Source: an uncultured Clostridia bacterium (GTDB taxonomy: Bacteria; Bacillota; Clostridia; Oscillospirales; CAG-272). Taken from it: DNA of 34,180 nt. The translations under genes were made by a program, and so were the position numbers. The first letter of the stretch is position 1; every line of letters starts with the position of its first letter. The notes beneath the pieces were generated by a model, which saw nothing but the letters and a program-made list of their open reading frames with translations, made no database searches and had not been told where the DNA came from. This document shows, piece after piece, positions 16,088 through 33,013 of the stretch. The stretch lies in assembly GCA_944391815.1 (NCBI GenBank), contig CALXUV010000037.1, positions 1-34,180 of the forward strand. The letters are read 5' to 3'.

Positions 16088-16560
16088 ATTAACTCCTTCA
16101 AACAGCCTGACATATTCAACAAGTTATCATTAAAACGGCAGTCAGCTTAAAAAACTTTCCACAGTTTAATCTGCCTGTCCTTCGCAAATGAAAAAAGTTA
16201 AAAAAATAATGACTGTCTTTTACTGCCTAAGTCTGTTTTTACATTATACATCCGGTCCGCAATGGTTTACTTAACCGGAATTGATTATTTGGTTATTTGG
16301 GTTATTTTGATTATTTAACACCATCCTGATTGAGCGGAATTTTAAAACACAAAGTAATTACATAATGATTTTTTTAATTTACTTTTGTACTTTTATTCAA
16401 ACATTTTTTATTTTAGCAGTCAGTTATTCAGATCATTTCTCTTATTAAATAACTTTTTTCTTAAACCGCTCCTTTTATTTAAACGGGTTGTTTTATTAAA
16501 TGGTTGTTTTTCAGCTCATTCTTTTTTATTTGAGCCGTTCTCTTTATTTAAACCGTTCGT
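16088..16560. other. Gap with low-complexity and periodic repeats
   Basis: The first half is plain AT-rich sequence, including a short tandem of GGTTATTT-like units (16282-16317). The second half is the 17-base-period array described separately, which runs into the end of the glycosyltransferase gene. No gene is seen. Confidence 0.6.
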
Positions 16561-16577
16561 TTACTTAAACAGTTCGT
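16392..16577. repeat. Degenerate tandem repeat, period about 17 bases
   Basis: Units resembling TTATTTAAACCGTTCGTT begin at about 16392, 16408, 16424, 16441, 16458, 16475, 16493, 16527, 16543 and 16561, with one decayed unit near 16510. The last unit contains the stop codon and final codons (NELFK) of the glycosyltransferase gene. Confidence 0.65.
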
Positions 16578-17691
16578 TTAATTTACCGAAAATGATTTCA
16601 TTGTGCCTTTCCCAGGTATATTTCAAACTTATTTCCCGGGCTTTTCGGGAAAGCTTTTCTCTTAAAGTTATGTCGTCAGACAAACGTTTCACTACATCGG
16701 CAATATCTTTCGGGTCATCTGCACTGAAAAGCAGTCCGCCATCCCCGAGAATTTCAGGAAGGCAGGAACTTCGGTTGCACGCAATAACCGCTCCGCGTTC
16801 CATACCTTCCATAAGTCCCAGCCCTGATGTTTCAATTTCACTTGCGTAGATAAAAACATCTGCTTTGTCGATTAATTCCGGTATTTTTTCATGCGGAACC
16901 TGATTTTCAAAAACCACATTGGCGGAAATTCCGAGTAAGTCAGCTTCTTTTCTGACTGCGTCAACAAAATGCTTCGGTCCGCTTCCAACCAAACGCAGCG
17001 TAAAATCTCTTCCGTTTGCTTTCAGAAGAGCAAGACCTCGTAGAAGCTTAGCGTGATTTTTGTACGGGTAAAAAGCCGAAATATAGATATATTCTTTTTT
17101 CTCTTGCAGTTTGGTTCCCGGTTTTTTATCAGAAAAAGGAAGATGTCTGACTCCGAAATACGCAACAGTACTGACTTTCGGTTTTATTCCCGAGGAAATA
17201 CATTCGCGTCTTGAAGTTTCGCTGTCAAAAACCACAAGGTCGGCTTTTTTTATACTTTTAAGAGCCGTTCTTCTCTGAACAAGTAATGAAAATGTGGCTT
17301 TACCGAACCCTTGGCGCAGTAACTGCCGCGGCTGAAAATACAGCTGGTTATGCACTTCCAGAACACTTTTGTACCTTTCAAGCCCCGGTCGCAAAAAACT
17401 GTTCGGAAAATAAACAACATCCGGTTTTTCTTTTTCTACCAAGCTGATAACCTCGGGAGCATGCGGTCGGTTAAAAAGACAGTCTTTAATCTTAGTTGCA
17501 GATTTTTCACTGACGATGATTTTAACCCCGGGCATTTCAGTATCGCAAAGCTCACTTGCAAGTTCAGGCGTACATATCACCGAAAGTTTAAAGCTTTTAG
17601 GAGCAGTTTTTTCAAAGTGCGAAAGAAAACCTTTCAGATATTCTTTAAGCCCTCCGCTGCCGCCGGCACCTGCTATCATAACAATTTTCAT
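16561..17691 (-). CDS. Glycosyltransferase family 4 (GT-B fold)
   Basis: It should transfer a sugar from a nucleotide donor to a growing lipid-linked glycan at the inner membrane face. The N-terminal GxGGSGGLKEYL loop (about 7-18) is the GT-B acceptor-domain glycine loop. The middle YIYISAFYPYKNHAKLLRGL is the usual linker before the donor domain. The C-terminal IYASEIETSGLGLMEGMERGAVIA holds the E-x7-E motif (ETSGLGLME) of retaining GT4 enzymes. Length is 376 residues from the ATG at 17691, which has AGGAG about 9 bases upstream; the longer frame to 17874 adds 61 residues without a family counterpart and is rejected. Donor and linkage are unknown. Its 3' end lies in a tandem repeat. Confidence 0.85.
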   Translation of the reverse strand: MKIVMIAGAGGSGGLKEYLKGFLSHFEKTAPKSFKLSVICTPELASELCDTEMPGVKIIVSEKSATKIKDCLFNRPHAPEVISLVEKEKPDVVYFPNSFLRPGLERYKSVLEVHNQLYFQPRQLLRQGFGKATFSLLVQRRTALKSIKKADLVVFDSETSRRECISSGIKPKVSTVAYFGVRHLPFSDKKPGTKLQEKKEYIYISAFYPYKNHAKLLRGLALLKANGRDFTLRLVGSGPKHFVDAVRKEADLLGISANVVFENQVPHEKIPELIDKADVFIYASEIETSGLGLMEGMERGAVIACNRSSCLPEILGDGGLLFSADDPKDIADVVKRLSDDITLREKLSRKAREISLKYTWERHNEIIFGKLNELFK

Positions 17692-18328
17692 ATTTATAAG
17701 CTCCTGTTCCTGCAACTCCGTAAATTCGGAGAGCTTTTCGATTTTTCCGTCTGCCTGAAAAAACAATGTTCTTAACAAAGTTTTTGTCGCCCCTTTGCTT
17801 GATATGTTTTTTATACAATATACAATTGTTAATTGTTTAAAATAAACGTCAAAGCAACAAAACAATCTATACAAATTAATTTAAAAAAGTCATATCCATA
17901 GTATACATTAATTTTAGCGCTGAAAATTTCAACAATATTGTCTTGTATTTAATAATATTCAGCAATATTTATCTTGTTTTTGATCAAACTCACTGTCTGC
18001 TATATTTGATTATTAAGATTTTTCTGAAAGTTCAGCGGGGAATTTCCGTATAAATACTTTTTCTGTTCTTAACAATGTAAACTATATTCACTGCAATAAG
18101 GTCAACATTATTACAACAAACAACTTTTGTTTTAAAGAACTCAGAAATTTTACAGCAATATATGTTTGGAAAAAAATTCATTGTCGGATTATCCTAACGC
18201 CAAGGCTAAAAACTAATAAATTCAAACTGCATACTAAATTTAAACAACCTTTAACTCACATTAAATATGAGTATTTTTTTACCAAGCGACCGCTCAATAG
18301 AAATAACTCACAAAGGATTAAAAGTTTT
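17692..18328. other. 637-base AT-rich gap between two glycosyltransferase genes
   Basis: No frame with a ribosome site, no terminator with a T-run and no convincing promoter are visible on either strand. AATATT-type clusters recur. It may be the remains of a lost gene, but no protein similarity can be read. Confidence 0.5.
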
Positions 18329-19291
18329 TTATCTTCTGATTTTAAACACCGCTTTATAATACAAGCTTTTCAGAGCTCCTCTTACCGCGCCGTAGCGGAT
18401 GGCGGCTTTTATTTTGAAAACCTGCGCATTACTGAGAATAGAGTTTTCCACGCCGAACCTTATACATTCAATAGCGGCACTTTTGCACTTGTGCTTAGCA
18501 AATCTCAGCGCAAGCAGATAAACCGGACTGAAATCAGAAGTGCTGATCTTCAGGAAAACAGGAAGAATCTTTTTTGAAAGCGAAAGAGAATCTTTTTCCA
18601 GCAGATAATGCTTTTTTACCGAAGTCTGACCGCTGTGAAGACGGTAAGTTACATTTCTTTCTCCGTCATATACGAGCCGGTATCCTGAAGAAAAAATCCG
18701 GTACCAGAGAAGAGCGTCCTGATTATATCTGAGTTGTTCGTCAAAAAGTCCGCACTCCTCAAAAACATTTTTATGAATCAGCATACAACAGCCGTTCAGG
18801 GTTCCTTTTTTCAGCATTATCTCAAGTACTTTTTTACCGCCATACACTTTTCCCGGCTCAAATCTATCGGGAAAATCACGCACTTTTTCCGATCCCGGGT
18901 TTGTGTAATACCCGCCGGTAAGCGCTATTAGTCTTTTGTTTTCACCGAATTTACTGATAAGTTTGACAGATGATTCTAATTTTCCCGGAGCATAACTGTC
19001 ATCGTGAGAAAGCCATGAAAAATAGTCTCCCGTCATTTTCTCTATCCCGAAATTCAGTGCGGAAGATACACCTCCGTTTTCTTTTTTGTAATACCTGATC
19101 TTATCTCCGAATGACAAAGCGATTTCTTCTGTTTTTCCACCGTCATCCGAACCGTCGTTTACTACTATCACTTCAAAATTTCCGTAAGTCTGGGAAAGTG
19201 CGCTGCTGACCGACTCAAAAAGATAGTCTGCTCCGTTATAAACCGGTATTATTATCGAAACCTTTGGAAAAAAAGATTCTGAGCTCGGCAT
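18329..19291 (-). CDS. Glycosyltransferase family 2 (GT-A fold)
   Basis: An inverting transferase for surface-glycan assembly. Order: PKVSIIIPVYNGADYL (9-24), SALSQTYGNFEVIVVNDGSDDG (nucleotide-binding aspartates at 45-50), KENGGVSSALNFGI (70-83), and SHDD at 95-98 as the metal-binding DxD equivalent. Later come LNGCCMLIHKNVFEECGLFDEQL and QDALLWYRI, the acceptor-side and catalytic-base region of the GT2 family. About 90 C-terminal residues are basic and may touch the membrane. I chose the ATG at 19291 (320 residues) because GGAGG lies 9 bases upstream; the TTG at 19324 gives a poorer start. Acceptor and donor are not predictable. Confidence 0.88.
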   Translation of the reverse strand: MPSSESFFPKVSIIIPVYNGADYLFESVSSALSQTYGNFEVIVVNDGSDDGGKTEEIALSFGDKIRYYKKENGGVSSALNFGIEKMTGDYFSWLSHDDSYAPGKLESSVKLISKFGENKRLIALTGGYYTNPGSEKVRDFPDRFEPGKVYGGKKVLEIMLKKGTLNGCCMLIHKNVFEECGLFDEQLRYNQDALLWYRIFSSGYRLVYDGERNVTYRLHSGQTSVKKHYLLEKDSLSLSKKILPVFLKISTSDFSPVYLLALRFAKHKCKSAAIECIRFGVENSILSNAQVFKIKAAIRYGAVRGALKSLYYKAVFKIRR

Positions 19292-19917
19292 TTTCGGCTT
19301 CCTCCGTCTGATTTCTGGTATCAATGTATTTTGACTTAAATTATTAACCGCAAGCGGTCATTTTATACTTTCTCTGAAAATTCACCGACTGTTATAACTT
19401 GCTGTTTTTTTGACTTAAAATCGCTCATTATTTCACCGACTGAATCTTTTGCATAAACATAAATTCACTCACAATTACGGCTATCGGATTTTATGCTATT
19501 ACTGTAAATTTAATTAAATTACTGCTAAGAGGTTTGGTGGTTTAACTGAAAATCAACTCTTCATTACAGTTATTATGTTGTATGTTTTCAATTAAAAATG
19601 AATTGTATTACAGCGACCGCATTTAACGCAATCAGTTAATAAATCACTCATTTTAAAAGCTCAAAGTATTGTGCCGTAACTGACAATTCGTACCGCATTG
19701 AATTGTTTTGTCAGCAAGTATATTCTGAGTATATTTTTTTATGCAGCAATATATTGTGCGAAATAAAAACATCTGATTTTTTTAAAGCAGCATTTTAAAG
19801 CGCAGCATTAAACTTTTACGTTAAGGGAAAGAACTTTCGGTTTCTTAGAAAGGAAAATCAATAAATCTTTTCAATCGGACTTCTTGCGGTAACTGTTATC
19901 ATATAGTGATTTTCCCT
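19292..19917. other. 626-base AT-rich gap
   Basis: It holds an inverted repeat ACCGC-AA-GCGGT (19347-19358) and a loosely repeated pair, TTTGACTTAAA ... TTCACCGACTG (first around 19330-19391, again around 19409-19442). There is no gene-like frame. The pair may be a decayed duplication. Confidence 0.5.
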
Positions 19918-20478
19918 CTACTTAATACTTTCATCAATTTTTCTGATGGAAGCTTCTTTTTTCTGTATAAAAACACTGCCGGCCGGCACCTCGCCTTTTA
20001 CAACGCTATGTGCGCCTATGACGCAGTTATCTCCGATTTTACTGCCTCTGAGAATTACGGTATATGCACCAATCCAGCAATTTCTGCCTATTTCAATAGG
20101 ACTTTTAACAAAATCATGTTTATTTACACCATTGGTTCCGAATTTGTGATCGTGATCGTAAACTATAACGCCCGGCGCCAGTATTGTATTGTCACCAATA
20201 ACTATTTTTTCGTGGCTGACTATTTTACAGTCACTTGATATTCCGCAGCCGTTTCCTATTTCAATGTAAGCGCCGTTTAATGCAGAAATCAAACTTCTGT
20301 TTTTCACCGAAACACGGTCACCGATTTTTATTTTTCCGTTTTTTCTCAGCCGGATCTCAGCATCTTTATAAATTCTAAGCATCCTGCCTTTTTTCAGGCG
20401 TCCGGCACTGAAAACCGAGGTCAGATTTTTTGCATACCCTTTTATAAGAGCTGCGGCATGGCTCAGCTTTATCCCCAT
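19918..20478 (-). CDS. Left-handed beta-helix acyltransferase (hexapeptide repeat, colanic-acid/maltose O-acetyltransferase type)
   Basis: It most likely acetylates a sugar hydroxyl of the glycan made here. The 186-residue protein shows hexapeptide turns such as KIKIGDRVSV, AYIEIGNGCGI, EKIVIGDNTIL and SKIGDNCVIGAHSVVKGEVPAGSV. DHDH (108-111) sits where the catalytic His is found in this family, and GRNCWIGAYTVILRG (131-145) is its usual C-terminal coil. The start at 20478 follows AAAGG and lies 4 bases after the stop of the upstream gene, whose terminal codons supply the SD, so the pair is coupled. The frame extends to 20550, but that part overlaps the upstream gene and lacks the family pattern. 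Acetyl as the acyl group is assumed from the family. Confidence 0.88.
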   Translation of the reverse strand: MGIKLSHAAALIKGYAKNLTSVFSAGRLKKGRMLRIYKDAEIRLRKNGKIKIGDRVSVKNRSLISALNGAYIEIGNGCGISSDCKIVSHEKIVIGDNTILAPGVIVYDHDHKFGTNGVNKHDFVKSPIEIGRNCWIGAYTVILRGSKIGDNCVIGAHSVVKGEVPAGSVFIQKKEASIRKIDESIK

Positions 20479-20482
20479 TTTT

Positions 20483-21427
20483 TCACCTTTCAGGAAGTAT
20501 AAATTCACTTCCGAGTTTGTAATCAAAATTATCCGGACGGAAATTAACATATCCGCTGAACGGATAAAACGTCATTTCTCCGAAATATATTTTTCCGGCA
20601 ACAAAATAAAGGTCGACACGTACCGCCGGAAATCCGGAGCTGAGTTTTTCAGCTTTTTCTATCATTGAATCAAGTTGGTCAGGCTTTTTTATGCCGTTTA
20701 TTTTGCGGGGATACTGACACTCCACTCCTGAGTCTTTCCAATCTCTGTCCAAAATATTCCTTTTGTGTCCGGCATATCTGTCTGTATCGACGATAATATA
20801 CTTTACACTTCCGTTAAAACAGAAAAACTTATAATCAGTTATTCCGGCATCGGAATTTATATCACCCGTAAGAAGCTCTTCCGCTATCACCCTCGGCTTT
20901 ATCCCGTAATACGCCCACTCTCTTCCGGCATATGCCTTTGACTGTCTGAAGTAAGATTTCATTTTTGCTTTGGCACTGTTTTCGTCAAATTTGCTTTTGT
21001 CTGTGCATACAATATTCGTTCCGCTGCCGTTTGTGGTTTTCAGTATGAATTTTTCCGGCAGATCTTCAAACCTTATCTCTTCAGGACTTTCCCACACGCC
21101 GTAGAGTTTTACCGCCAGGCTGCTTTCGTCTTTGCTGCTTAAATACTCTCTTACCCTGTATTTGTCTGCTAAGACCGTCATAAGCTCATTTCTGTAATAA
21201 AGCTTATACCACTGTATCTTTTCGCTGTACCTGACGGGACTGTCAAGTGAAAGTTTTCTTCCGGTTTTCAGCCGGTACTGAATTTTCAGCATTGTCCTGT
21301 CCGGTATGAATTTCAGCATCCGGAGTATTCCGAATCTGAGTCCCTTCGGGATTATTTTCTTGTATCTTTCCATATTTAAGTTACCCGACTTTTTATTGCT
21401 GAATTCCCATCTGTCTGTATTCAGCAT
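20483..21427 (-). CDS. TupA-like ATP-grasp protein
   Basis: Matches the TupA-like ATP-grasp family, named after a Bacillus protein of teichuronopeptide synthesis and common in polysaccharide loci, where it is often mislabelled glycosyltransferase. Landmarks in 314 residues: YSEKIQWYKLYYRNELMTVLADKYRVREYL (about 68-97), EKFILKTTNGSGTNIVC (ATP-grasp lysine and glycine loop), YGIKPRVIAEELL (ATP-grasp lid), DYKFFCFNG and VRVDLYF...KIYFGEMTFYPFSG (metal-binding Asp/Glu). Such enzymes join a carboxylate to an amine, so amide or peptide decoration of a uronic-acid glycan is a sensible guess, and ugd with the epimerase supplies the acid. Start is uncertain: ATG at 21427 or ATG at 21373 (MERYKK), neither with a strong SD. 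Confidence 0.82.
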   Translation of the reverse strand: MLNTDRWEFSNKKSGNLNMERYKKIIPKGLRFGILRMLKFIPDRTMLKIQYRLKTGRKLSLDSPVRYSEKIQWYKLYYRNELMTVLADKYRVREYLSSKDESSLAVKLYGVWESPEEIRFEDLPEKFILKTTNGSGTNIVCTDKSKFDENSAKAKMKSYFRQSKAYAGREWAYYGIKPRVIAEELLTGDINSDAGITDYKFFCFNGSVKYIIVDTDRYAGHKRNILDRDWKDSGVECQYPRKINGIKKPDQLDSMIEKAEKLSSGFPAVRVDLYFVAGKIYFGEMTFYPFSGYVNFRPDNFDYKLGSEFILPER

Positions 21428-21516
21428 TTTCTGTGTTCAGAGTTTTTTATTCAGGTTTGCGTATATAATGTTAACCGCTTTATATTTTACACGTCTTTTA
21501 AGTATTGGCTATTTAC

Positions 21517-22623
21517 TCAGTATCCGATAATTTTCCTCATTGCCTGATTTATTTTATCGGTACTGTACTCTTCAAGACATCTTCTGTATGAGTTTTCTCC
21601 CATTTGTACGCTCAGTTTTTTATTTTCGGCAAGAAGCGTCATTTTTTGTGCAAGCTGAGTAACGTTTTGGGGTTCTACAAGAAATCCGTTTTCCCCGTCC
21701 TTTACGGCTTCCCTGCACCCTCTCCAATCTGTGGTTATTACTGCTCTTCCTGTTGCCATTGCTTCAAGGATTGTACGGGGAAGCCCCTCATAATAATAAG
21801 TCGGAAGAACGAACACGCTGCACTCCCTGTAATATCCGACCGGATCCTTAACCTCTCCCGGATATTCTATGGTTTTATTCCGTATAAACGGTTCGATATC
21901 CTCAGCTTTCAGAGCTCCGATTGAAGAGTCAAAGCCTCCGAGAAGTATAAATTTCGCTTCCGGGTGCGATCTTTTGACAATTTCAGCTGCTTTGCAGTAT
22001 TCCATAACGCCTTTTTCCGCTATTATTCTTCCTACCATAAGAAAAACCGTTTCATTTGGGACCGGGCACTTCACAAATCTTTTCATGTCAACGCCCGAGC
22101 CTCCTACTTTTATAGCTTTTTCAGGTCTGACTATTTTTCCGTCCACAAACATTTTCAAATCATCTTCATTCTGGAAAATCACTTTGTCAGCCTTGCCAAG
22201 CGCCGTTTTATAGAGTCTGTCCGTAAGCGTACGAAGCAATTTTCTTTTTAACCCGGAACCGGTATAAACTCTTCCGAGTCCGGTAATCATCGGATAAATT
22301 TTACTTACTCCTGATGACCTTGCAGCAACTGAACCGTATATAACAGGTTTTATAGTATATGAAAAAACTATGTCAGGTCTGAGTTTTTTGAGTATCTTTT
22401 TAAGTCCCAGAAAGTATCTGATATCACCTATAACCGAGGTGTTGTCTTTTACAAACGGCAAAGTTATAATTTCCGTAACGCCAAGTGACTTTATCTCTTC
22501 CGAGTAAATGTCATCAGGAGCAACGACCGTCACTTCGCTGCCCTTATTAACCATATCCCGAATAAGTTCTCCTCTGAAATTATACACCGTCTTACTTTTT
22601 GGCGACAATACAACTATTTTCAT
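21517..22623 (-). CDS. Glycosyltransferase family 4 (PglA/EpsD-like)
   Basis: A retaining GT-B enzyme of 368 residues. The N-terminal MKIVVLSPKSKTVYNFRGELIRDM and the block FSYTIKPVIYGSVAARSSGV with YPMITGLGRVYTG are characteristic of the bacillosaminyl-diphospho-undecaprenol GalNAc-transferase/EpsD-like branch, which usually adds the second sugar to a lipid-linked carrier. The donor domain shows FLMVGRIIAEKGVMEY (about 194-209) and EGLPRTILEAMATG with Glu279 and Glu287 (E-x7-E). The start is ATG with AGGGG 5 bases upstream. It is the first transcribed gene of the cluster visible here. No initiating phosphoglycosyl transferase, flippase or polymerase is in the window, so those must lie elsewhere. 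Confidence 0.88.
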   Translation of the reverse strand: MKIVVLSPKSKTVYNFRGELIRDMVNKGSEVTVVAPDDIYSEEIKSLGVTEIITLPFVKDNTSVIGDIRYFLGLKKILKKLRPDIVFSYTIKPVIYGSVAARSSGVSKIYPMITGLGRVYTGSGLKRKLLRTLTDRLYKTALGKADKVIFQNEDDLKMFVDGKIVRPEKAIKVGGSGVDMKRFVKCPVPNETVFLMVGRIIAEKGVMEYCKAAEIVKRSHPEAKFILLGGFDSSIGALKAEDIEPFIRNKTIEYPGEVKDPVGYYRECSVFVLPTYYYEGLPRTILEAMATGRAVITTDWRGCREAVKDGENGFLVEPQNVTQLAQKMTLLAENKKLSVQMGENSYRRCLEEYSTDKINQAMRKIIGY

Positions 22624-23349: not shown

Positions 23350-24627
23350 TTATTTCAGCGGTATCATCACCTTTAACCTGAATATTCCGTCTTGCGCAGA
23401 AAAAATCGCCTGCCCGCCGTGCAGTTCAGCGATCGCCGAAATTCCCCTGGTTCCGTATCCGTGCTCTTTTCGTTCAGACTGTGGAATTCCGTCTACTATA
23501 ACGATATTACCCACATACGGATTTTCAACTGAAAAAAGAAGTTTCTCCTTATAAACCGTCATTCTTATCTGAACAGTCTTTTTTACATCATTGCTTACGA
23601 CAGCAGTCGCGGTAACAGCGTTTTCAACGGCGTTAGAAAACAATGAACATATCTCTGTGTCTGTAAGTGAAATGTTTTCCGGAACACTTGCCTCAACGGA
23701 TAGCGAGACTCCCTCCTGTCTGGCAAATGTCTCAAAATATGAAATAAGCATATTTACAGTTTCATTTTCACAGTAATGAACAGGAGTTATACTGTCAAGG
23801 TCTGATTCGGCAAGTTGCAGATAACTGATTATTCCACTTACGTCTCCCTTACTTGCAAGCGTCCTGAGGAGCGAAAAATGATGTCTCATGTCGTGTCTGT
23901 ACTGACGTGTCTGTTCCTGCATACGACCAAGAGCGTATATTTCCGTTTTTGCTTCTTTTAACTGAGTTTTCATCAGGTCGTTTTCTCTCTGTGTCTGACT
24001 TCTTCTTTCTGTTTCAAGGTGGTAAATGAAGGCAAACAGAAAATAAAAAACGGAAACAACAGTCGGAATAAACTGAACGACAGCTTCGTATCCGCTTGCA
24101 AGCCAATCGGTATAAACGGTACTTACATAACTGAAAAGATAATTCAGAAACGGGACAAAGCCGAATGTTATACAAGACCTGCGCGATTCAGTTATAATGT
24201 TGCTGACGGGAATGACAACATACCTCTTAAGCAGAAAATAACAAGCACCCATTGACAAAACAAATATTATAAACGGAAAAATATCTGATTTTAACAGCGT
24301 CTGTCCGAGAATGGAAAACCACTTCGGTACCTGAAAACAAAGAAATGCAGCAAAAACCGAAACCGAAGACACCAGCAGTGATTTTCTTAAAAACGCACTT
24401 AAATAAATTATGAGTGGAAAATGTACAATAAGCGGATAAATTCTACGTGTCTGCTCCAAACCGAAAACCATGACAACCACGGTCTGAAGCACCAATAATA
24501 TTACAAAAAAGATAACAGTCACCGTGACGTTCTTTCCGTTCCTTTTAAATCCGGAAAAATCGACAGCCAGAGCAAAACCGAACGCCAGCGTCAACACAAA
24601 ACACGCTGTCGTATAAAAGTAAATCAT
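23350..24627 (-). CDS. Sensor histidine kinase, GHKL type (AgrC/NatK-like)
   Basis: It is expected to sense a signal at the membrane and phosphorylate the partner LytTR regulator. Of 425 residues, the first 205 hold about six membrane segments (near 3-22, 33-55, 65-80, 84-100, 117-133 and 186-203). A linker coiled coil (205-240) leads to the phospho-acceptor His245 in RQYRHDMRHHFSLL. The N box is LFSNAVENAV (329-338), and the G box is HGYGTRGISAIAELHGG (389-405). The protein lacks an extracellular sensor domain, so the signal is probably a peptide or a membrane state. Its ATG overlaps the stop of the regulator gene by four bases (ATGA), so the two are coupled. The inducing signal is unknown. 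Confidence 0.9.
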   Translation of the reverse strand: MIYFYTTACFVLTLAFGFALAVDFSGFKRNGKNVTVTVIFFVILLVLQTVVVMVFGLEQTRRIYPLIVHFPLIIYLSAFLRKSLLVSSVSVFAAFLCFQVPKWFSILGQTLLKSDIFPFIIFVLSMGACYFLLKRYVVIPVSNIITESRRSCITFGFVPFLNYLFSYVSTVYTDWLASGYEAVVQFIPTVVSVFYFLFAFIYHLETERRSQTQRENDLMKTQLKEAKTEIYALGRMQEQTRQYRHDMRHHFSLLRTLASKGDVSGIISYLQLAESDLDSITPVHYCENETVNMLISYFETFARQEGVSLSVEASVPENISLTDTEICSLFSNAVENAVTATAVVSNDVKKTVQIRMTVYKEKLLFSVENPYVGNIVIVDGIPQSERKEHGYGTRGISAIAELHGGQAIFSAQDGIFRLKVMIPLK

Positions 24628-25370
24628 CGGTTTCTTCCTCCGTTACAGACCATCGATTCGGCAACATGAAACATATATTCCGTATAGGCTGTACGCACCT
24701 TCTGATAAACCGAACGCGCAATGGGTAATCTTTTACCCAGGACTGTCAGAAGTTCTCCTTGCCTTACTTCGCTCACAGAAGCGAAATTAACCAGATAGGA
24801 TCTGTGAATTTTACAGAATTCGGGACGGCTGAGCAGTGCCGGCTCGTAATCGGAAAGGTGTCCCCGCACATTTTTACAGCTACCGTCACTGAGATAAAAA
24901 TATATTTTCTTTGACATCACCTCGACATACTCAATTTTGCAGTAAGGAAGACGTGAAACACTGCCCTGTGTTTGTAATACCAGAGCATCCTCCTGCCTTT
25001 TCAGAAGTTTTTCAACATGCTCGACTGCTGAAAACAATTTTTCCTCGGATACTGGTTTGAGCAAATAGTTTGTGGCTTGTACGCTGTAACTTTCCACTGC
25101 ATATTCCGGTGATGAAGTAAGAAAAACAAGTTTTACATAATCGTTCTTCAGTCGGATTTCCCGCGCTGCCTTAATCCCGTCGATCCCGGGCATTTGTACA
25201 TCCAGCAAAAGAAGATCATACGTTACCTGTTCCATTGACTGTAGCAAATCCATCGCATTTTCAAATCCGCTCACAAAAATTTCCGATCCGGTCTGTTTGC
25301 GGTATAAATCCAATAGATTTGTCACTGTCTCAAGAACTTGCTTTTCGTCATCGCAAACAGCAATTCTCAC
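24624..25370 (-). CDS. LytTR-family response regulator
   Basis: A DNA-binding response regulator of the AgrA/LytR type. The receiver domain is 1 to about 120: acidic pair Asp7/Asp8, phospho-acceptor Asp57 in LLLLDVQMPGIDG, switch TSS (85-87) and the LLKP lysine (about 105-108). The LytTR domain (about 140-235) is recognised by LPYCKIEYVEVMSKKIYFYL, EFCKIHRSYLVNF and LPIARSVYQKVRTAY. The start is GTG with AAAGG 10 bases upstream. It leads the operon with the kinase. It is transcribed away from the giant surface-protein gene and shares its control region, so that gene is the obvious candidate target. LytTR proteins bind pairs of short direct repeats, and candidates are listed for this region. 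Confidence 0.93.
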   Translation of the reverse strand: MRIAVCDDEKQVLETVTNLLDLYRKQTGSEIFVSGFENAMDLLQSMEQVTYDLLLLDVQMPGIDGIKAAREIRLKNDYVKLVFLTSSPEYAVESYSVQATNYLLKPVSEEKLFSAVEHVEKLLKRQEDALVLQTQGSVSRLPYCKIEYVEVMSKKIYFYLSDGSCKNVRGHLSDYEPALLSRPEFCKIHRSYLVNFASVSEVRQGELLTVLGKRLPIARSVYQKVRTAYTEYMFHVAESMVCNGGRNR

Positions 25371-25733: not shown

Positions 25734-28700
25734 ATGGTTCGTAAAAGAATTACTGCCTTTACACTATGTCTGCTGCTGATATTACAGATAGTTATCCCGA
25801 TTGCCGCATCGGCAAAAAGCGGAACAGAGTCTTACTCTGCGCAAGCCTCTCACAGCGGTTTTGTCACTTTGGGTGGCAGAACGCTCCGAAAAATTGAAAC
25901 TATCAGTGAAAACGGCGACGGATCTTTTACACTTTCGCTTTCTCTTTCATCAAATATTGAAAAAAGCGATCAGAACGACAATTCTCAGGTTGCAAGAAAC
26001 AACTGTTTCACGGTAACCCAAAGCGGAGAATATCTGATCGAGCTGTGGGGAGGCTCCGGCGGCGACGGAGAAGACACCACTTACAGTAAAGGCGGACAGG
26101 GTGGCAGCGGCGGTCACGTATACGGGGTCATCCACCTTAACGCCGGACAAACCCTTTACTATACTCTCGGAGGCAACGGAGTTCAGACACTGAATTTTGA
26201 CTCGGGAGGAGGAGCAAACGGAAACGGAGGAAATCACGGAGATATCGGCAGTTACATGGTCGGCGGAGGCGGTGGTTACTCGGCTGTATACCTGTTTGAA
26301 TCTGCGGATTTTGAAGAGAAGTACACTGACAGTCTCGGTAACATTTCTTCGGATATACAGGAAACTGACCGTATACAGAAATATATCATGATTGCAGGCG
26401 GTGGTGGAGGCGGCGGAGCAGGTAACGGATTTTCCCTCACCGGCAGCGCAACCGGACTTCCTGACGGCGGCGCAGGAGGAAGTATCGGGGGAAATTACGG
26501 CTTGCTTTCCGGTGACGGATATGATGTAGCCGGAACATTTTTTGTCGGAAGCGACGGAAAATCAAGCGGCACTTCCGTTTCTTATGTAGGGCACGGCGGT
26601 ACAAATCTGCCGGGAACTCCTTCCGACACCCTTGCTTCAATGTTTGAAGTCGAATCCCCAAATGACTGGAAATGCACATATAACGCATCCACCAACGGCG
26701 GAGCCGGAGGCGCGGGAAATATGCGCGGCGGTGGAGGCGGTGCAGGATTTTGCGGCGGAAGCGGCGGAATTATGACTTCGATTATCTCTCCGACAAACGT
26801 AGGCGGCGGTGGCGGGGGTTCATCCTTCGTTGCCGAGACTGTTTCCTACTCAGGACTTTCCGAGTCAGCTGAAAGCAACCTGATCCACAATAATCCGAGC
26901 TCTACCGGAGGAGCAATCAACATCACGTATCTCGGGACCGAAACAGCACCGGTTGAAGAAACAATCGATATCTCCGGCACAGTCAGTCAGTATTTCGATA
27001 TTGCCGAAGTTTCCGCATCAAGCGGTAATGTTTCATCGGAAAACGGAGTTTTTACCGTATCTGATTCTTCTCTTATGTTATCCTCCGACGGCGAAAGCAG
27101 TTCGGTTGAGATATCAGTTGTTTTGCGTCCGAAATCCGGATTTGCAGGCGGAAACAATGTTCCGCTGCTTCAGGACGATACCGTTTTCCTGACTTCAGGC
27201 GATGACTCAGCCAAAATCGTTTTACATCAGGATTGCAGTGCGGTAAACGTTGCGCTGAATTTCAGCGTTGTTACCCACAGTCATGTTACAAATATAGATG
27301 GGTATATTTACCCCGTTTCGGAACTTTTCACGGACAATTATGCCGAAATCCGCGACAGCCTTACGGATGATATCATGTTTGACTTTATTCAGTCAATCGG
27401 AAGCTATACCGTTACCGATTCAAACGGAACAGTACTTCAACCGGGCGATGTTATTACCGTTAGGGAAACTGCCGTATATAAAGTTTTTTTCAATGTAATA
27501 CCCAAAACGATCGAACCCGCAACCGTTGGAAAGCCGGTTTCTGAGCAAACTTTTTCTTCAACGGCAACAATTACCTTTTTCTCGGCAAACAGCGGAGAAA
27601 TGAACGGTAACGGGTTACGGTACACAAAAAGTCTGAGCTATTTCAGTGAAACCGGCATATACGAGCTTTCCCTTGAAATTTCTTCCGGTACCGACAGCAG
27701 TTACGCCAAATTAGATCCGCTGAAAATTGCGTACAGCTCATCAACGACGAGCCTGACGGCGAAAGTACCTGCGTCCGGTTATTACATGTTCCAGCTCTGG
27801 GGAGGAAACGGAGCAAAAGGAGGCGGATACAGAGGCGGTGATGGAGGCGGTGCGGGAGGCGAAGGCGGTTACGTCTGCGGAATTGTTCACTTAAAAAAAG
27901 GCGATAAGATAACAGCTAAGCTCGGTGCGGACGGTGTTACTCCGGAAGCCGACAGAGCAGGCGGTCCCGGAGGGGGATACACTTCGTTACAATCCGGATC
28001 CGACCTGATTCTCGTTGCCGGCGGCGGAGGCGGGGGCGGCGGATGCGGTGGACTTCTCGGTTTGTTTAACGGAGAAGACGGAGGGAGCGTTGATAATAAC
28101 AAGCCATCTTCCGATCCAGACGCCGTTTATGCCGGAAACCCCGGCACGGCAGGAGAAAACACTATTTTTGGAAACGGAGGCGACGGAGGAAGTGCAGGCG
28201 TTAACTATGTCGGTTCCAACGTCTCTGAGGATGCAAGTTCTCTTTCCGACGACGCTCAGACGATTTTCAACTCTGCTTCAAAGTCAAATTATCAGGACGA
28301 ATATCAGCAACGCAGCGGGGGAGCAATTTTTATCACTCCTTTACAGCTTGATTCGACCGAAGGAAGCGCAAATGAAGATGTTTTAAGCGCTCTCTCGGGA
28401 TATAACCTTGATGTTGATCTATCTCAGTATTTCACTGTCAAGGATGTAACCGTGGAAAACAAGGACGGCAGCGCAGTAGATGCAGTAACGGAAGTAAACG
28501 GTCAGCAGATAAAGGTTTCTTCTATTAATCCGTTGGTTAATGTAACCGAAACTGTTGAAAATGAGACGACAACCCTGCACGGTAGTGTTGACTTTATCGT
28601 AAAAATCCGGCTTTACGTCAGAGATGGTTTTCTCGGAGGCAATGACGTTCCGGTGCTCAGTTACGAAAATTCTTCAAACAGTACCGGAATGCTGCTCTCT

Positions 28701-31208
28701 CAGGGGAGCGATTCGCTTGAAATCAACAGACAAGGCAGTGTAAATCCAAACGATTCAAACAAATCCGACTTTGCAAATGTTGCAATTAATTACACCCCGA
28801 ACCCCGATTTACTGACGGTTAACACTGTAACCTATGTGCGCGGCGACGCTGCTATTCCTCACAGTCTTCTTTTCAATTACCCGGGTGACGGTAAAATTTA
28901 CACTTGGGAAGACGATTTTGTGAGCTTTGTCGATCCCAATACTTCAGATCTTGTTCACGCTCCGGAATCCACAACACTTGTTCCGGTTGAAATAGGTCTG
29001 CGCCCTTTGATTGCCGAGCCGTCGAAAGCGTCGGTAGGTGAAACAGCCACCGAAAGCATTTCAACCAAATATGCAGTAATCGAAGTAAAATACCGGGTTA
29101 TTTACAATCTCGGAAATATTCAGACCAGCCATACTCCCGATGAAAACGGCAGATACATAATCAACCCGGAACAGGAGTATTCGGCTGTACTGACAGCCGA
29201 TAAAGGTTCGCTGCTTCCCGACCGCATCACAGTAGAGACAGGCGGTAAAATACTGGCAGACACCCGGTATAACTATAATCCTGCTAACGGTTCGCTGCTT
29301 ATCCCTGCCTCTGAGGTAACTGATAACATAACTATTACCGCACACTCGGAAATGCCCGAAGTCTATAAAATTCATTACGTATATGAAACCTTACCCGGAG
29401 GAGAGCCGGTATTTTATGAAGATGAATATCCCGCCGGCTCTGTTATTTTCACAAAATTTTCTGACACTTATGAAGCGCCGGTTTTCAAAGGTTATGAGTT
29501 CGTCTGGGATTGGGGTGCCGACGAAGGCATTACAAATATGCCTGAAAAAGATATCTGGGTAACCGGTACTTATGTCGCTGTCAAGTATAACCTTACGATC
29601 TACTATAAGGACAAAGATGGTATCGATCTTTTTCCGGCATATACCGAAGCAGTCGAGTACGGTAAACCTTACAGTATAAAATCTCCGGTTAAATCCGGAT
29701 ATATGGCTGACATACTGGTTGCAGAAGGAACGGTCAGCGGCGAAACCGTGATAACAGTCACCTACTCACCTACTTCCAACAGTCTTAACATCGTTTATAT
29801 ACTAAGCGACAGCAACACTGTATGTGGTACGGTAAACAAGTACTACGCTACCGATCAGAGCTTTGCCGTTACCTCTCCGGAAATTGTCGGTTATACTCCG
29901 GACCTCCATGTTGTTGAAGGCATTATGACAGCCGATGGTATAACTGTATATGTTACTTACAGTCCCGATAGCTATACCGTAACATTTGATCCTTCGGGAG
30001 GAAACTGTCAGGAAACGGTAAAAACTGTTATATACAATAACATATACGGATTTGACGGTAGTTCTTATGCCGGACTGCCGGTACCGGTTCGTCCCGGATA
30101 TAAATTCCTCGGTTGGTATTCCGGAGAAACAAAAATAACGGAAGAGACCAGGGTCACAACCGCTTCATCCCACACGCTTACTGCAAAATGGGAGGTAAAC
30201 AAATACACTCTGGTCGTACGTTATCTCTACGAAAACAATCTGTCCGCAGGCGAGGACAAAGTTTTAAGTATTCCTTACGGCGGAAATTTCAGCGTAGAAT
30301 CACCGACAATACCCGGTTATACGGCGGACAAGACGATTGTTTCCGGAATAATGCCGGCTCAGAACACAGTGATAACAGTTGTCTATCTGAAAAACTCATA
30401 CAACCTTACCGTAAAATACATTTATGAGGACGGCAGTCAGGCTTATCCGGACGAAACGTTTGAAATTGCGAGAAACACTCCGTACACACTGATAAGTCCG
30501 GAAGTTACCGGTCACACGCCCGATATCAAAGAAATTTCCGGAACTTCCCTCTCAGAAGATGAGACCGTGACTGTAACGTATTATAAAAACAGCTACACTC
30601 TGACGATACATTACACACTCGAAGACGGCAGCAGCGTCTTTGACGACTTTACTATGGAAGTGCGTTACGGCGAAAACTATTCCGTCAATACTCCCGAATA
30701 CGGGAATTATATTCCGTCAATTCCGGTTGTTTCCGGAGTTATGGGTGCCGTCAGTCAGGAAATAACCGTTATTTACTACCCCGGAGAACTGCCGGAGATA
30801 ATCAGTGTTGATATTGAATGGGGAGACCTTACATTTAAAGCGGGATACGACGAATGGAACCCGCAGACGCACAAATACGATTCGGTTTCGGTCGCTCCCT
30901 TGACAACCGGCTCAAATTATCTGCGGATGATAAACCGTTCTAACGTTTCAGTTAACGCCGACTTTTCTTTTTCAGTAAACGCAGGGTACGAAGAAATCTT
31001 CGAAGGTTACTTCACGGCATCCGGAACGGAACCCGAAACTCCTGTTTTGTCGGACTCTATATTACTCGGAACAGGGATCTCCGACAACTCCGGAGCAATC
31101 TGGCTGTGGTTAAGAGAAAAAACAGCCGGTGCAGTTCCGGAATCGGGAGCCAACGGAACTTTTACCGTCGGTTCGTGTACCGTAACTATAACAAAGGCAG
31201 GTGAATAA
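25734..31208 (+). CDS. Giant secreted surface protein: two glycine-rich domains, MucBP-like and Flg_new repeats, C-terminal W-G/W-N-P domain
   Basis: A 1824-residue exported protein, probably a surface stalk or adhesin. The signal peptide is 1-27 (hydrophobic core, ASA cut site). Glycine-rich domain 1 is about 92-400 with framework YLIELWGGSGG, MIAGGGGGGGAG and VGGGGGGSSF. A beta region follows (about 405-610) with SQYF and GFAGGNNVPLL. Glycine-rich domain 2 (about 645-870) and a second such beta region (about 885-1110: SQYF, GFLGGNDVPVL) repeat the plan, so 500 or so residues are an old duplication. Residues 1210-1682 are stalk repeats: about six MucBP-like units (YNLTIYYKDKDG, YTLVVRYLYENN and so on) with one Listeria-Bacteroides (Flg_new) unit (1413-1487, GYKFLGWYSG). 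Residues 1690-1820 form a domain shared with the small protein at 32080. No LPxTG or C-terminal membrane segment exists, so attachment must differ. SD AAAGGAG, 6-base spacer. Confidence 0.9.
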   Translation: MVRKRITAFTLCLLLILQIVIPIAASAKSGTESYSAQASHSGFVTLGGRTLRKIETISENGDGSFTLSLSLSSNIEKSDQNDNSQVARNNCFTVTQSGEYLIELWGGSGGDGEDTTYSKGGQGGSGGHVYGVIHLNAGQTLYYTLGGNGVQTLNFDSGGGANGNGGNHGDIGSYMVGGGGGYSAVYLFESADFEEKYTDSLGNISSDIQETDRIQKYIMIAGGGGGGGAGNGFSLTGSATGLPDGGAGGSIGGNYGLLSGDGYDVAGTFFVGSDGKSSGTSVSYVGHGGTNLPGTPSDTLASMFEVESPNDWKCTYNASTNGGAGGAGNMRGGGGGAGFCGGSGGIMTSIISPTNVGGGGGGSSFVAETVSYSGLSESAESNLIHNNPSSTGGAINITYLGTETAPVEETIDISGTVSQYFDIAEVSASSGNVSSENGVFTVSDSSLMLSSDGESSSVEISVVLRPKSGFAGGNNVPLLQDDTVFLTSGDDSAKIVLHQDCSAVNVALNFSVVTHSHVTNIDGYIYPVSELFTDNYAEIRDSLTDDIMFDFIQSIGSYTVTDSNGTVLQPGDVITVRETAVYKVFFNVIPKTIEPATVGKPVSEQTFSSTATITFFSANSGEMNGNGLRYTKSLSYFSETGIYELSLEISSGTDSSYAKLDPLKIAYSSSTTSLTAKVPASGYYMFQLWGGNGAKGGGYRGGDGGGAGGEGGYVCGIVHLKKGDKITAKLGADGVTPEADRAGGPGGGYTSLQSGSDLILVAGGGGGGGGCGGLLGLFNGEDGGSVDNNKPSSDPDAVYAGNPGTAGENTIFGNGGDGGSAGVNYVGSNVSEDASSLSDDAQTIFNSASKSNYQDEYQQRSGGAIFITPLQLDSTEGSANEDVLSALSGYNLDVDLSQYFTVKDVTVENKDGSAVDAVTEVNGQQIKVSSINPLVNVTETVENETTTLHGSVDFIVKIRLYVRDGFLGGNDVPVLSYENSSNSTGMLLSQGSDSLEINRQGSVNPNDSNKSDFANVAINYTPNPDLLTVNTVTYVRGDAAIPHSLLFNYPGDGKIYTWEDDFVSFVDPNTSDLVHAPESTTLVPVEIGLRPLIAEPSKASVGETATESISTKYAVIEVKYRVIYNLGNIQTSHTPDENGRYIINPEQEYSAVLTADKGSLLPDRITVETGGKILADTRYNYNPANGSLLIPASEVTDNITITAHSEMPEVYKIHYVYETLPGGEPVFYEDEYPAGSVIFTKFSDTYEAPVFKGYEFVWDWGADEGITNMPEKDIWVTGTYVAVKYNLTIYYKDKDGIDLFPAYTEAVEYGKPYSIKSPVKSGYMADILVAEGTVSGETVITVTYSPTSNSLNIVYILSDSNTVCGTVNKYYATDQSFAVTSPEIVGYTPDLHVVEGIMTADGITVYVTYSPDSYTVTFDPSGGNCQETVKTVIYNNIYGFDGSSYAGLPVPVRPGYKFLGWYSGETKITEETRVTTASSHTLTAKWEVNKYTLVVRYLYENNLSAGEDKVLSIPYGGNFSVESPTIPGYTADKTIVSGIMPAQNTVITVVYLKNSYNLTVKYIYEDGSQAYPDETFEIARNTPYTLISPEVTGHTPDIKEISGTSLSEDETVTVTYYKNSYTLTIHYTLEDGSSVFDDFTMEVRYGENYSVNTPEYGNYIPSIPVVSGVMGAVSQEITVIYYPGELPEIISVDIEWGDLTFKAGYDEWNPQTHKYDSVSVAPLTTGSNYLRMINRSNVSVNADFSFSVNAGYEEIFEGYFTASGTEPETPVLSDSILLGTGISDNSGAIWLWLREKTAGAVPESGANGTFTVGSCTVTITKAGE

Positions 31209-31210
31209 TT

Positions 31211-32005
31211 TTGGAAAGACAGTCGGTAATGCGTGAGGATTACGACAAAAAAATCCGACTCCGGAAAAAATCCATTTTCTGCTACTCGGTAAAAAATTTC
31301 AAAAAAATCAGCGAGGAGTTGCAGCCGGAAATCATAGGTGAAATCATTGAAAACAGCGAGTCTCAGTCTGACGAAAAAATACTTATAGGTTCCGGTTTTT
31401 ATTCAATTCATGAAACCGGCAGCAAAAGCAGACTTATTTACTCGGTTGCAGGTTATATTCAGCTGGATGACGGCAGTTTTGTAACCGTACTTAAATCAAG
31501 AATACCTTTGTTTATAACGGGAGTATTTTCAGTTGCAGTATTGGCGGCTGTTTTAACTATTGTTTTTTTACGGATTAATACTCCGCCGGCAGTTAAGCCC
31601 CTTCCGCCTGATCCCGGAATCGGAGTGATCGAAGGTGATGATTCTGAAAAAAACGAATCTGAAAATGGCGGCGGTGCGGTCAGACTGACATACAGTCTTG
31701 ACGCAAAGCTTTCGCTCTCAACCGGCAGTATTAAAATTTATTTTCTTAACCCGAATGCTTCCAACCGCGACATATCTATCACTTTATATCTGCTTGACGG
31801 TGAAAACAAAATCAAAATAGCAGAGTCAGGACTCATTCCGTCGGGCTATGGTCTTACAAATATGACTTTTATAAAAAACTCGGCTGAATTGTCGCATGGA
31901 AACTACAACGCTTTGTTTATTGTTTCTTTTTACGATCCGGATACAGGAGAAAAAGCTCTTGTCGAGGCTTCTGTTACGGACGTGAAGCTTCAGGTTTTAC
32001 CGTAG
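31211..32005 (+). CDS. Single-pass membrane protein, unknown family
   Basis: I do not recognise the family. The 264-residue protein has a basic, probably cytoplasmic N-terminal part (1-97, rich in Lys and Arg near residues 13-32). One membrane segment follows at about 99-120 (PLFITGVFSVAVLAAVLTIVFL), then a Pro-rich spacer (PPAVKPLPPDPG), an acidic linker, and an outside beta-rich domain (about 155-262, with SIKIYFLNPNASNRDISITLYLL). There is no signal peptide, so type II topology (N-in) is likely. The start is TTG two bases after the giant gene's stop, with AGGTGA overlapping that gene's end; an ATG at 31229 is an alternative. The tight link suggests a partner in anchoring, export or assembly of the two secreted neighbours. 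This role is inferred from position only. Confidence 0.8.
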   Translation: MERQSVMREDYDKKIRLRKKSIFCYSVKNFKKISEELQPEIIGEIIENSESQSDEKILIGSGFYSIHETGSKSRLIYSVAGYIQLDDGSFVTVLKSRIPLFITGVFSVAVLAAVLTIVFLRINTPPAVKPLPPDPGIGVIEGDDSEKNESENGGGAVRLTYSLDAKLSLSTGSIKIYFLNPNASNRDISITLYLLDGENKIKIAESGLIPSGYGLTNMTFIKNSAELSHGNYNALFIVSFYDPDTGEKALVEASVTDVKLQVLP

Positions 32006-32044
32006 ATTATATTCAACGTTTTTCCGACAAAGGCGGAAGCGTAA

Positions 32045-32050
32045 TATAAT
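32045..32050 (+). promoter_or_regulatory. Possible internal -10 box for the small secreted protein
   Basis: A perfect TATAAT lies 30 bases before the ATG at 32080. No good -35 stands 16-18 bases upstream (TTCCGA at best). It could give the small protein more transcript than the giant one. Confidence 0.35.
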
Positions 32051-32079
32051 ACATAAATTATTTTAAAAGGAGCACTATT

Positions 32080-32598
32080 ATGAAAAAACTTATAACTCTT
32101 GCTATGACATTCATAATGATAATTGTTATGGCGACTTCATCATTTGCGGAGACAGTAGGAGACGGCGGAAGCGCAACAGGAAAGGTCGAGGTCAAAATCA
32201 ACAAAGATGATGTTCAGACAGTTTACTCTGTCGACATTGACTGGGGATCCCTTGATTTTACTTACAATTTCGGAGAGGGTACATGGAATCCGGCGGATCA
32301 TACCGTTACGGGAGGCACACCAGGCTGGAAAAACTCCGAAGCAAAAATAACCGTAACCAACCATTCCAACGCAGAAGTAGCTATCAAAGCAGTATTTGCA
32401 GATAATCAGACTACTGCCGAACTAAACGGCGTTACCGCAAATCTCACGAATAATGCGTTCCAACTTGCTGCCGGAAAGCTGAATAAACCCGCCGAAGCTG
32501 ATAATGCTCAGACAACAGTTACTGTAAGCGGCACACCGAGCACCTTGGATGATTTTACCGTCGGAACGATAACCGTCACCGTTTCAGCGGCGTCCTGA
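32080..32598 (+). CDS. Small secreted protein with the same W-G/W-N-P domain as the giant protein's C-terminus
   Basis: A 172-residue exported protein. The signal peptide is 1-23 (MKKLITLAMTFIMIIVMATSSFA) with cleavage expected before ETVG. A short linker leads to a beta domain from about 48 to the end: YSVDIDWGSLDFTY, GTWNPADHTV, KITVTNHSNAEV and a final VGTITVTV. The giant protein ends with the parallel set SVDIEWGDLTF, EWNPQTHKY, RMINRSNVSV and VGSCTVTI, so the two share a homologous domain. There is no sortase signal, membrane tail or cysteine. SD AAAAGGAG with a strong match and about 8-base spacing. It could be a subunit that packs with, caps or polymerises on the giant protein; the function is unknown and the domain is not one I can name with certainty. 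Confidence 0.85.
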   Translation: MKKLITLAMTFIMIIVMATSSFAETVGDGGSATGKVEVKINKDDVQTVYSVDIDWGSLDFTYNFGEGTWNPADHTVTGGTPGWKNSEAKITVTNHSNAEVAIKAVFADNQTTAELNGVTANLTNNAFQLAAGKLNKPAEADNAQTTVTVSGTPSTLDDFTVGTITVTVSAAS

Positions 32599-32607
32599 AA
32601 ATAATAA

Positions 32608-32703
32608 CCGGCGGATACAGGGCAGTTCCGTTGGCCTTAGCCGTCCTTTGAACGGGACTGACAAAACAAAAGGGTTCTCAGGTGCTGCCCTGTGAACCCG
32701 CCG
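32608..32703 (+). ncRNA. Structured RNA element with two mutually exclusive folds
   Basis: Fold A: CGGCGG (32609-32614) with CCGCCG (32698-32703), then ACAGGGCAG (32617-32625) with CTGCCCTGT (32685-32693), enclosing small hairpins such as GGC-CTTA-GCC and CCGT...ACGG (about 32634-32654). Fold B: GGGTTC (32672-32677) with GAACCC (32694-32699) and CAGG with CCTG inside it. Folds A and B compete for bases 32685-32699. It starts 10 bases after the small-protein stop and is followed at once by a terminator. I could not assign it to SRP, tmRNA, 6S, RNase P or a riboswitch class. It may be a separate small RNA, a 3'-UTR element or an attenuator. Confidence 0.55.
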
Positions 32704-32779
32704 AAAAAACCACCGCATTTATTTGCTCTACCGCTGTTAAGCGGAGACAGGCAGATGTTTGCGGCGGTTTTTTATTTTT
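32704..32779 (+). terminator. Long terminator hairpin closing the surface-protein operon/RNA
   Basis: AAAAAACCACCGCA (32704-32717) pairs with TGCGGCGGTTTTTT (32760-32773) with one A-C mismatch, followed by ATTTTTG. Its loop holds a second hairpin CCGCT-GTTA-AGCGG (32731-32744). Confidence 0.8.
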
Positions 32780-33013
32780 GTTGACGCACTTGGTTTATTC
32801 CCGGCGACGGATTCTGTATTTATTGCTTATTACCTTATGGTTCAACGTGATATACGATTTTTTCCTGCATCTGAGAATGAATGGTCTTCCGTTTTCGCTG
32901 CATGTATAAACAACAGAAAATTTACCGGTGCCATGTGCAAGCTTTTTGGCAAGGATTTTCTCTGATCCGATTGGTTTTGTCAAAGTTGGTGAGAAAAGGT
33001 TTTTCAACTGTAT

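Follow-up and report, generated by a model that had tools for sequence, protein, structure and literature searches.

Gene clusters of the WxL system, found in gut commensals, encode small and large copies of the WxL domain that differ from one another in structure (passages of PMC10599100 and PMC9772566). In the parts of PMC9772566 concerned, a split between the small and the large domain is drawn, and 99% of WxL within the Firmicutes is assigned to the Bacilli. An excerpt of PMC10599100 gives an AlphaFold2 prediction in which a strand of the partner protein WxLIP fills a gap in the WxL domain. TasA and TapA of Bacillus form a fibre by donor strand, as stated in a section of PMC9674648, and the archaeal threads treated in part of PMC9715654 are another fibre-forming comparison. 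Many gut Clostridia are uncultured, and three protein families noted at the locus described here and at related loci (A, B and D) would offer a testable answer to the question of how these bacteria keep large adhesins on the cell without sortase.

The locus and its shared domain

The window, i.e., the whole stretch of DNA analysed, is a complete contig of 34,180 bases from a 2.35-Mb genome in 81 contigs. Three open reading frames singled out by a sequence-only reading of this DNA were found where it had placed them, all on the plus strand. The first (25734-31208), supported by its BLAST relatives, encodes a giant secreted protein of 1824 aa that ends in a domain designated D (residues 1680-1824; 30771-31205, plus strand), which was recognized by a held-out profile. 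The second (31211-32005) begins with a TTG codon 2 bases past the stop codon of the giant gene, as had been reported, and encodes protein A of 264 aa, consisting of an N-terminal part of about 100 residues, one transmembrane segment (residues ~100-118; 31508-31564, plus strand; hydropathy) and a predicted extracellular beta-sandwich (Ig-like) domain, the conserved portion of which spans residues 129-262 (31595-31996, plus strand) according to an alignment, a model, a held-out profile and homology to B. The third (32080-32598) encodes a free small D protein of 172 aa (held-out profile and model) with a signal peptide followed by one D, which together with its N-terminal extension occupies 32152-32595 on the plus strand (profile searches and model). 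Hydropathy agrees with the earlier description of the membrane protein as single-pass, its one segment lying at about residue 100, and of both secreted proteins as free of membrane anchors, there being none at the C-terminus of the giant or of the small protein. On the minus strand, divergent from these genes, are a LytTR response regulator (24624-25370), a possible regulator of the locus that is conserved only occasionally, and an adjoining GHKL histidine kinase (23350-24627), both identified by family matches and by BLAST of related loci. Polysaccharide genes are also present upstream within the window.

The giant protein contains a glycine-rich region of the ALK/LTK type (best stretch 96-394) and, ahead of D, mucin-binding and Listeria-Bacteroides repeats that match Muc_B2 (best 1368-1412), Flg_new (1414-1485) and MucBP (1493-1551). 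Its BLAST relatives cover residues 4-1636 in locus L062 and 45-1636 in L154, with partial relatives in L047, L050, L051, L078 and L152.

The ordered motifs reported to be shared by the giant tail and the small protein are all present: SVDIEWGDLTF in the giant and SVDIDWGSLDF in the small protein, followed by WNPQTH and WNPADH, NRSNVSV and NHSNAEV, and VGSCTVTI and VGTITVTV, respectively, so that the description needs correction only in that the small protein closes in V, not I. Direct BLASTP of the two proteins aligned a piece of 25 residues only (E 5e-6). With the window left out, 94 D copies from other genomes gave a profile that matched the small protein at E 1.5e-35 and residues 1684-1822 of the giant at E 8.6e-24; among 1,000 shuffled controls (500 per domain) the highest score was 10 bits. 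The profile comparison on which the sequence-only reading had staked the shared domain is therefore highly significant.

Profile searches found just two D copies in the window's own genome, namely the giant tail and the small protein. With the small protein as sole query, the earliest search of named genomes gave no match, and a search of 98 genomes gave matches in five, its own included; two of these, G053 (with an in-frame stop) and G067, were weak and were later dropped as unrelated on inspection. When 395 genomes from the window's family were searched with an alignment of 12 D copies, D was detected in 28, belonging to 14 of 71 genera, and repeated profile searches of fetched stretches gave 97 D matches at E ≤ 0.01, some of which are fragments. 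An improved D profile gave a further, weak match in another genome of the genus (G006, E 6e-4); apart from the window's own, the other 27 genomes searched gave none. No Pfam or NCBIfam family covers D, the scattered matches involving one or two members apiece; PHROGs gave no match and Rfam none at gathering scores. By these searches D appears to be an undescribed family, and no published account of these genes was found in the open-licence full-text literature, which is no proof of absence.

Anchored proteins A and B and the order of the genes

Two kinds of anchored protein, A and B, adjoin D genes. Proteins of type A start with an N-terminal anchor, either a transmembrane helix or, on visual inspection, a cysteine in a lipobox-like setting, which a linker joins to a single conserved domain; those of type B have an anchor, typically a linker resembling FxPPPFD, and a conserved domain. 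A lipobox-like cysteine, judged by eye, in some A and B proteins indicates that the conserved domain lies outside the cell. The two types are homologous (hhalign probability 97.7, E 2e-12), whereas comparison of the D and A profiles detected no relation. The A protein of the window is matched by a held-out A profile at E 2.7e-43, has no Pfam family, and carries its extra N-terminal part of ~100 residues ahead of the transmembrane segment. Its seven best BLAST matches are located at the same seven loci as the long relatives of the giant (L047, L050, L051, L062, L078, L152, L154), and among the 12 matches listed only those seven align from the N-terminus. A profile search for B gave no match in the window's genome, the assembly of which is 94.5% complete.

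The D, A and B searches of the 395 family genomes were treated as one genome draw. Strong A matches (E < 1e-15) occur in 27 of the 28 genomes with D, G369 being the lone D genome without an A match, and in none of the 367 without D (Fisher p 6e-41); strong B matches (E < 1e-25) occur in 24 of 28 and 4 of 367, respectively; these strict cut-offs were picked after a gap in the E-values was visible, and members of a single family are not independent samples, which leaves the p-values descriptive only. At the search cut-off of 1e-4, A was found in 44 and B in 38 of the 395 genomes, many of the weak A matches falling together with B or distant A-like proteins. Many carrier genomes are fragmentary, and both a large (at least 400 aa) and a small D were seen in 15 of the 28, counted in fetched stretches. 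A sample across the class yielded A in 9 of 291 genomes at E ≤ 1e-5, two of them strongly: the window's own genome and G639, in which the arrangement is D-A-D-B.

Gene order was examined at 35 loci found through B (six closer B rows, named species genomes) on gene maps made with a simple ORF caller. B is present at these loci by construction, and at least ten of them may repeat loci fetched earlier (e.g., L122/L076 and L134/L053; in L076 and L122 the D matches are equal in size and place). The titles of 27 name a ruminant gut site, and 34 bear Clostridial names (Clostridia, Oscillospiraceae, a Subdoligranulum, others, and Lachnospiraceae that include Candidatus Mediterraneibacter tabaqchaliae and Candidatus Blautia faecipullorum), the exception being a 'Bacillota bacterium'. 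Of the 35 loci, 31 contain D and 25 contain A, and in 23 of the 25 with A a D gene is the next member of the set. The complete row D-A-D(s)-B was found in 15 loci, in 14 of which the opening D protein is at least 300 aa long. All members found are on one strand in 34 of the 35 (the remaining locus gave no match), B stands last in 33, and 87 of 97 gaps between neighbouring members are 150 bases or shorter. Many B loci without the full row are close to contig ends; in L132, B lies in a stretch of 20 kb without D or A. A second layout, in which A is followed by a giant, three to five small D proteins and B, was found in seven clusters (L012, L014, L048, L054, L055, L069, L070), with A cut by a contig end in one of them. 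In L013 and L049, pairs of D genes adjoin neither A nor B.

The three genes do stand together in relatives, and on this point the sequence-only reading survives the neighbourhood comparison that it had proposed; its picture of a self-contained, three-gene system is too narrow, for relatives also encode another anchor, B, and as many as five small subunits. Its further suggestion that the LytTR system and a facing lipoprotein complete the module fared unevenly in BLAST searches of 73 loci (E ≤ 1e-5), many of which are short upstream or downstream. Relatives of the LytTR regulator are present in five of the 73 (L050, at 2e-51, L142, L153, L055 and L054), divergent from a large D gene in two of these (L050 and L153), and relatives of the kinase in four, while the lipoprotein has relatives in none.

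Elsewhere in the class, distant A-like proteins adjoin another small secreted protein, D', at eight loci (L167-L173, L175), the two genes overlapping in L171, L172, L173 and L175; in L166 a distant A-like gene has no D' gene beside it. Profile comparison of D with D' gave no match. When six D' proteins were scanned, one was just over the cut-off of the Pfam family SCPU (E 1.4e-4), the family of Csu-type pilins, and another was below it (1.4e-3); a search with the SCPU family itself gave no match anywhere, its controls likewise being without match. Among solved structures the D' profile matched the biofilm-associated surface protein 7dm0 (E 2.8e-4). The D' neighbours support a general pairing of A-type anchors with small secreted beta proteins.

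Predicted folds and candidate modes of assembly

AlphaFold2 models of the small D (pLDDT 91) and of the A ectodomain (pLDDT 89) both consist of strands, with no helix of four or more residues; the alignment for D was trimmed at the N-terminus, so that the extension is not really covered by the model. Foldseek comparison of D with the PDB gave no match at E ≤ 0.001; the best three matches are chaperone-usher pilin complexes (E 0.004-0.008, TM-score by query 0.32-0.39), and among the 50 matches listed, in which the TM-score by query length does not exceed 0.46, the pilins include the PapG pilin domain (3me0/2wmp), the CsuA/B complex 6fqa and FimA (3sqb; E 0.004-0.023 overall), and MSP/ASH-type domains also occur. 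A gave three Foldseek matches at E ≤ 0.001, the pilin CfaB (E 4.7e-4) and then Kir channels, with nanobodies and fimbrial chaperones among lower matches, and its ectodomain is predicted to be a generic Ig-like sandwich. Searches of solved-structure sequences returned five weak matches for the D profile, the best of them named like designed Ig domains (E 0.006). With the A profile, 14 of 15 matches were to short stretches of SAKe proteins, which are designed repeat proteins, and were dismissed.

By hydropathy, a C-terminal transmembrane segment is absent from all 148 D proteins that are complete at both ends, a total in which overlapping loci cause some to appear twice, whereas 139 have a hydrophobic N-terminal segment. 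Loose LPXTG-like matches occur in seven of the 148, none of which can precede a transmembrane segment, given that no C-terminal one was found. A sortase match is present in 6 of the 28 D genomes and in none of the other 22, the match in the window's own genome being a 70-residue frame. With C-terminal segments lacking and sortase mostly undetected, D proteins would for the most part have to be held by other means, or released.

The observations comprise the families and how they occur together, the recurring order of the genes and the D proteins without a C-terminal anchor. They are, in our judgement, probably best explained by a sortase-independent surface-display module of gut Clostridia in which A, and B where present, docks D. 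D would be a secreted beta-sandwich domain, one copy of which closes a giant adhesin-like protein; each cluster would supply a further one to five as small, free-standing subunits, in some cases joined to additional segments. An N-terminal helix or lipid would anchor A, and B as well in most relatives, in the membrane with the beta-sandwich exposed, and this ectodomain may bind D domains, as co-occurrence and gene order suggest. The C-terminus of the giant and the small subunits would then form a membrane-proximal complex. Fixed by its tail, the giant would extend its glycine-rich and repeat regions away from the cell, and the small D proteins would complete the base or a short stalk. Contact between A and D might be made by beta-strand complementation, a guess by analogy with the AlphaFold2 prediction for WxL with WxLIP. 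The role of docking base that had been proposed for the membrane protein is supported by the near-perfect co-occurrence and the repeated order of the genes, the physical contact, like its geometry and stoichiometry, being putative. Several observations count against docking: the D and A profiles are unrelated, so that the pairing is invisible in sequence, and neighbouring genes can share a task without touching. There are also the exceptions, i.e., the lack of a B match in the window's own genome, of A in G369 and of D in four genomes with strong B, the 10 of 35 B loci in which A was unseen, and the D pairs without A or B in L013 and L049.

The copies of D that close giants differ from those that are free. 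When 142 D copies (large, 27; small, 82; other, 33) were placed in a tree on the basis of 142 columns, the large D label changes 8 times, compared with 24.9 times in shuffles, none of 500 of which was as low, although the tree is poorly resolved (60 of 139 inner branches open) and the clustering of labels is inflated by near-copies. The nearest rows to the window's giant tail are tails of other giants, and those to its small protein are other small proteins. In the clusters of the second layout, the small D proteins at each of the last three places group together in a single clade, with 6, 6 and 7 of the seven clusters represented. From this modest tree support, the D of giant tails and that of free small proteins would seem to be separate classes that have been kept for a long time. 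The clustering of labels and the place-specific clades speak against a single exchangeable module and favour set positions within a complex.

Such separate classes would also be expected if the locus encoded a pilus-like fibre assembled by donor-strand exchange without an usher, with small D proteins as pilin-like subunits bearing an N-terminal donor strand, the giant as tip adhesin with its C-terminal D as pilin domain, and A and B starting, capping or anchoring the fibre. In its Gram-positive form, with giants reaching the tip through their D domain and A and B lending a strand to start and end assembly, this seems rather improbable to us, and as a general account of the locus we consider it unlikely. 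The pilins that head the Foldseek matches of D point weakly in its direction, as to the polymerisation or strand exchange suggested by the sequence-only reading; none of them reaches E ≤ 0.001, the TM-scores are low, and the trimmed alignment leaves the putative donor strand not really modelled. A strand-like pattern ahead of D occurs in 14 of 61 small proteins compared with 4.6 expected (0 of 1,000 shuffles as high), which would suit donor strands, but it also occurs in 6 of 17 large proteins compared with 1.8 expected (3 of 1,000 shuffles as high) and is therefore not special to small D. Lone sub-threshold matches among 63 D copies to Fimbrial_CS1 (E 0.0011) and to an outer-membrane-usher model (E 3e-4) involve one copy each and stand beside equally good unrelated ones such as the P22 coat protein (E 2.4e-4). 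The single D' protein just above the SCPU cut-off would likewise favour a fibre, but the D and D' profiles do not match, and the neighbourhood gene listings show no evident usher or PapD-type chaperone gene.

A further possibility, which we regard as doubtful, is that D binds the wall or a glycan, holding the giant to peptidoglycan or another polymer, with A and B sensing or checking the quality of secretion. It draws on the nearest analogue in layout, WxL domains being described as peptidoglycan-binding in an excerpt of PMC10599100, yet near-perfect co-occurrence of A with D would be needless for a self-sufficient binder, and no wall-binding family is among the Pfam matches listed (all of those for 16 proteins or segments, and 25 of 26 families for the D copies). 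That the two window proteins, both beta-rich, resemble each other by mere chance is scarcely credible, for although direct BLASTP spans so few residues, the held-out profile rules it out and the co-occurrence recurs.

If the docking module is the right reading, the three co-inherited families, which lack Pfam models, could serve as a marker for Clostridial adhesins; if the contact is made by strand exchange, monoderms would gain a further example of an assembled fibre or platform.

Comparison with known systems

Large adhesins are displayed in Gram-positives by sortase-assembled pili and LPXTG proteins, which the present locus resembles in that respect; it differs from them in that D proteins have no C-terminal transmembrane segment and most carrier genomes have no sortase match. 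Chaperone-usher pili (type 1, P and Csu) are similar in having a large tip adhesin with a C-terminal pilin domain, small pilins and an Ig-like helper, but the helpers here are membrane-anchored, and the similarity of fold is not significant. TasA and TapA share with the locus the combination of secreted beta-sandwich subunits and an accessory partner in a Gram-positive; unlike the locus, the tapA-sipW-tasA operon has no giant that carries the subunit domain, and camelysin/TasA is not among the Pfam matches listed.

Membership of the WxL family is ruled out by Pfam and by profile comparison. The WxL model PF13731 matched none of 16 proteins or segments at E ≤ 5 and is absent among 25 of the 26 families listed for 63 D copies. 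The profiles of D and WxL compare by hhalign at a probability of 0.35 (E 0.17), the WxL set being 4 rows from one genome, whereas two halves of that set match each other at 99.6. No Pfam match to DUF916 or DUF3324 was found in A; WxL was found in none of 19 relatives, and among 199 genomes from across the phylum two gave a match at E ≤ 0.001, one of them over the cut-off.

In layout, the WxL/WxLIP (DUF916-DUF3324) clusters are similar to the locus in combining a small single-domain protein, a large protein that ends in that domain and an Ig-like partner anchored in the membrane, the Ig-like nature of A being a matter of the model and of generic fold matches. They differ in their carriers, which are Clostridia here and mostly Bacilli for WxL; in the anchor, which is N-terminal to the conserved domain here and C-terminal in the WxL partner; in the conserved ectodomains, one in A and two in the WxL partner; and in the additional anchor, B, and as many as five small subunits found here. 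Judged by sequence, the module would consist of new families in a familiar plan, WxL-like in layout and presumed function, and would be an apparently independent counterpart of the WxL system.

Folded stretch downstream of the small D gene

Directly 3' of the small gene for D, the domain common to the giant protein's C-terminal tail and to free small secreted proteins, lies a strongly folding stretch (window 32598-32790, + strand; z of -6.8 versus shuffles), the 3' end of which is a hairpin followed by T's. It matched no Rfam family, has only one copy in the window's genome, and occupies the position held in relatives by the gene for B, the second anchored protein, homologous to A.

A, B and their neighbours in relatives

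A, the membrane-anchored beta-sandwich protein encoded beside D genes, has a long N-terminal part preceding the transmembrane segment where the gene order is A, giant, small Ds and B (L014, 8699-10213; L012, 10722-12317). Pfam matched GLUG repeats in the L014 protein, an odd location for such repeats. In L176 (7162-8058, - strand) and L076 (4333-5091, + strand), B is adjoined by another secreted protein, which is hydrophobic at its C-terminal end; an SPQTG-like sorting motif was noted by eye in the L176 protein.

D gene pairs also occur (L013, 681-2145; L049, 6680-8186) with no A or B matches on the same contig stretch; both genomes have A and B matches on other contigs.

Elsewhere, A-like anchored proteins adjoin D', a different small secreted protein with a YTVTIPA-like motif (L171, 7870-8963; L172, 4521-5548; L173, 3546-4606; also L167-L170 and L175), and the two genes overlap in L171, L172, L173 and L175. 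L172 also contains a gene resembling, by eye, a phage tape-measure gene.

Other genes of the window

One frame (window 8223-10730, + strand) combines an exonuclease (RNase_T) domain with an alpha-L-rhamnosidase-like domain, an odd fusion. A polysaccharide gene run (window 13475-22623, - strand) encodes glycosyltransferases and GDP-mannose dehydratase-like, UDP-glucose dehydrogenase-like and TupA-like ATP-grasp proteins.
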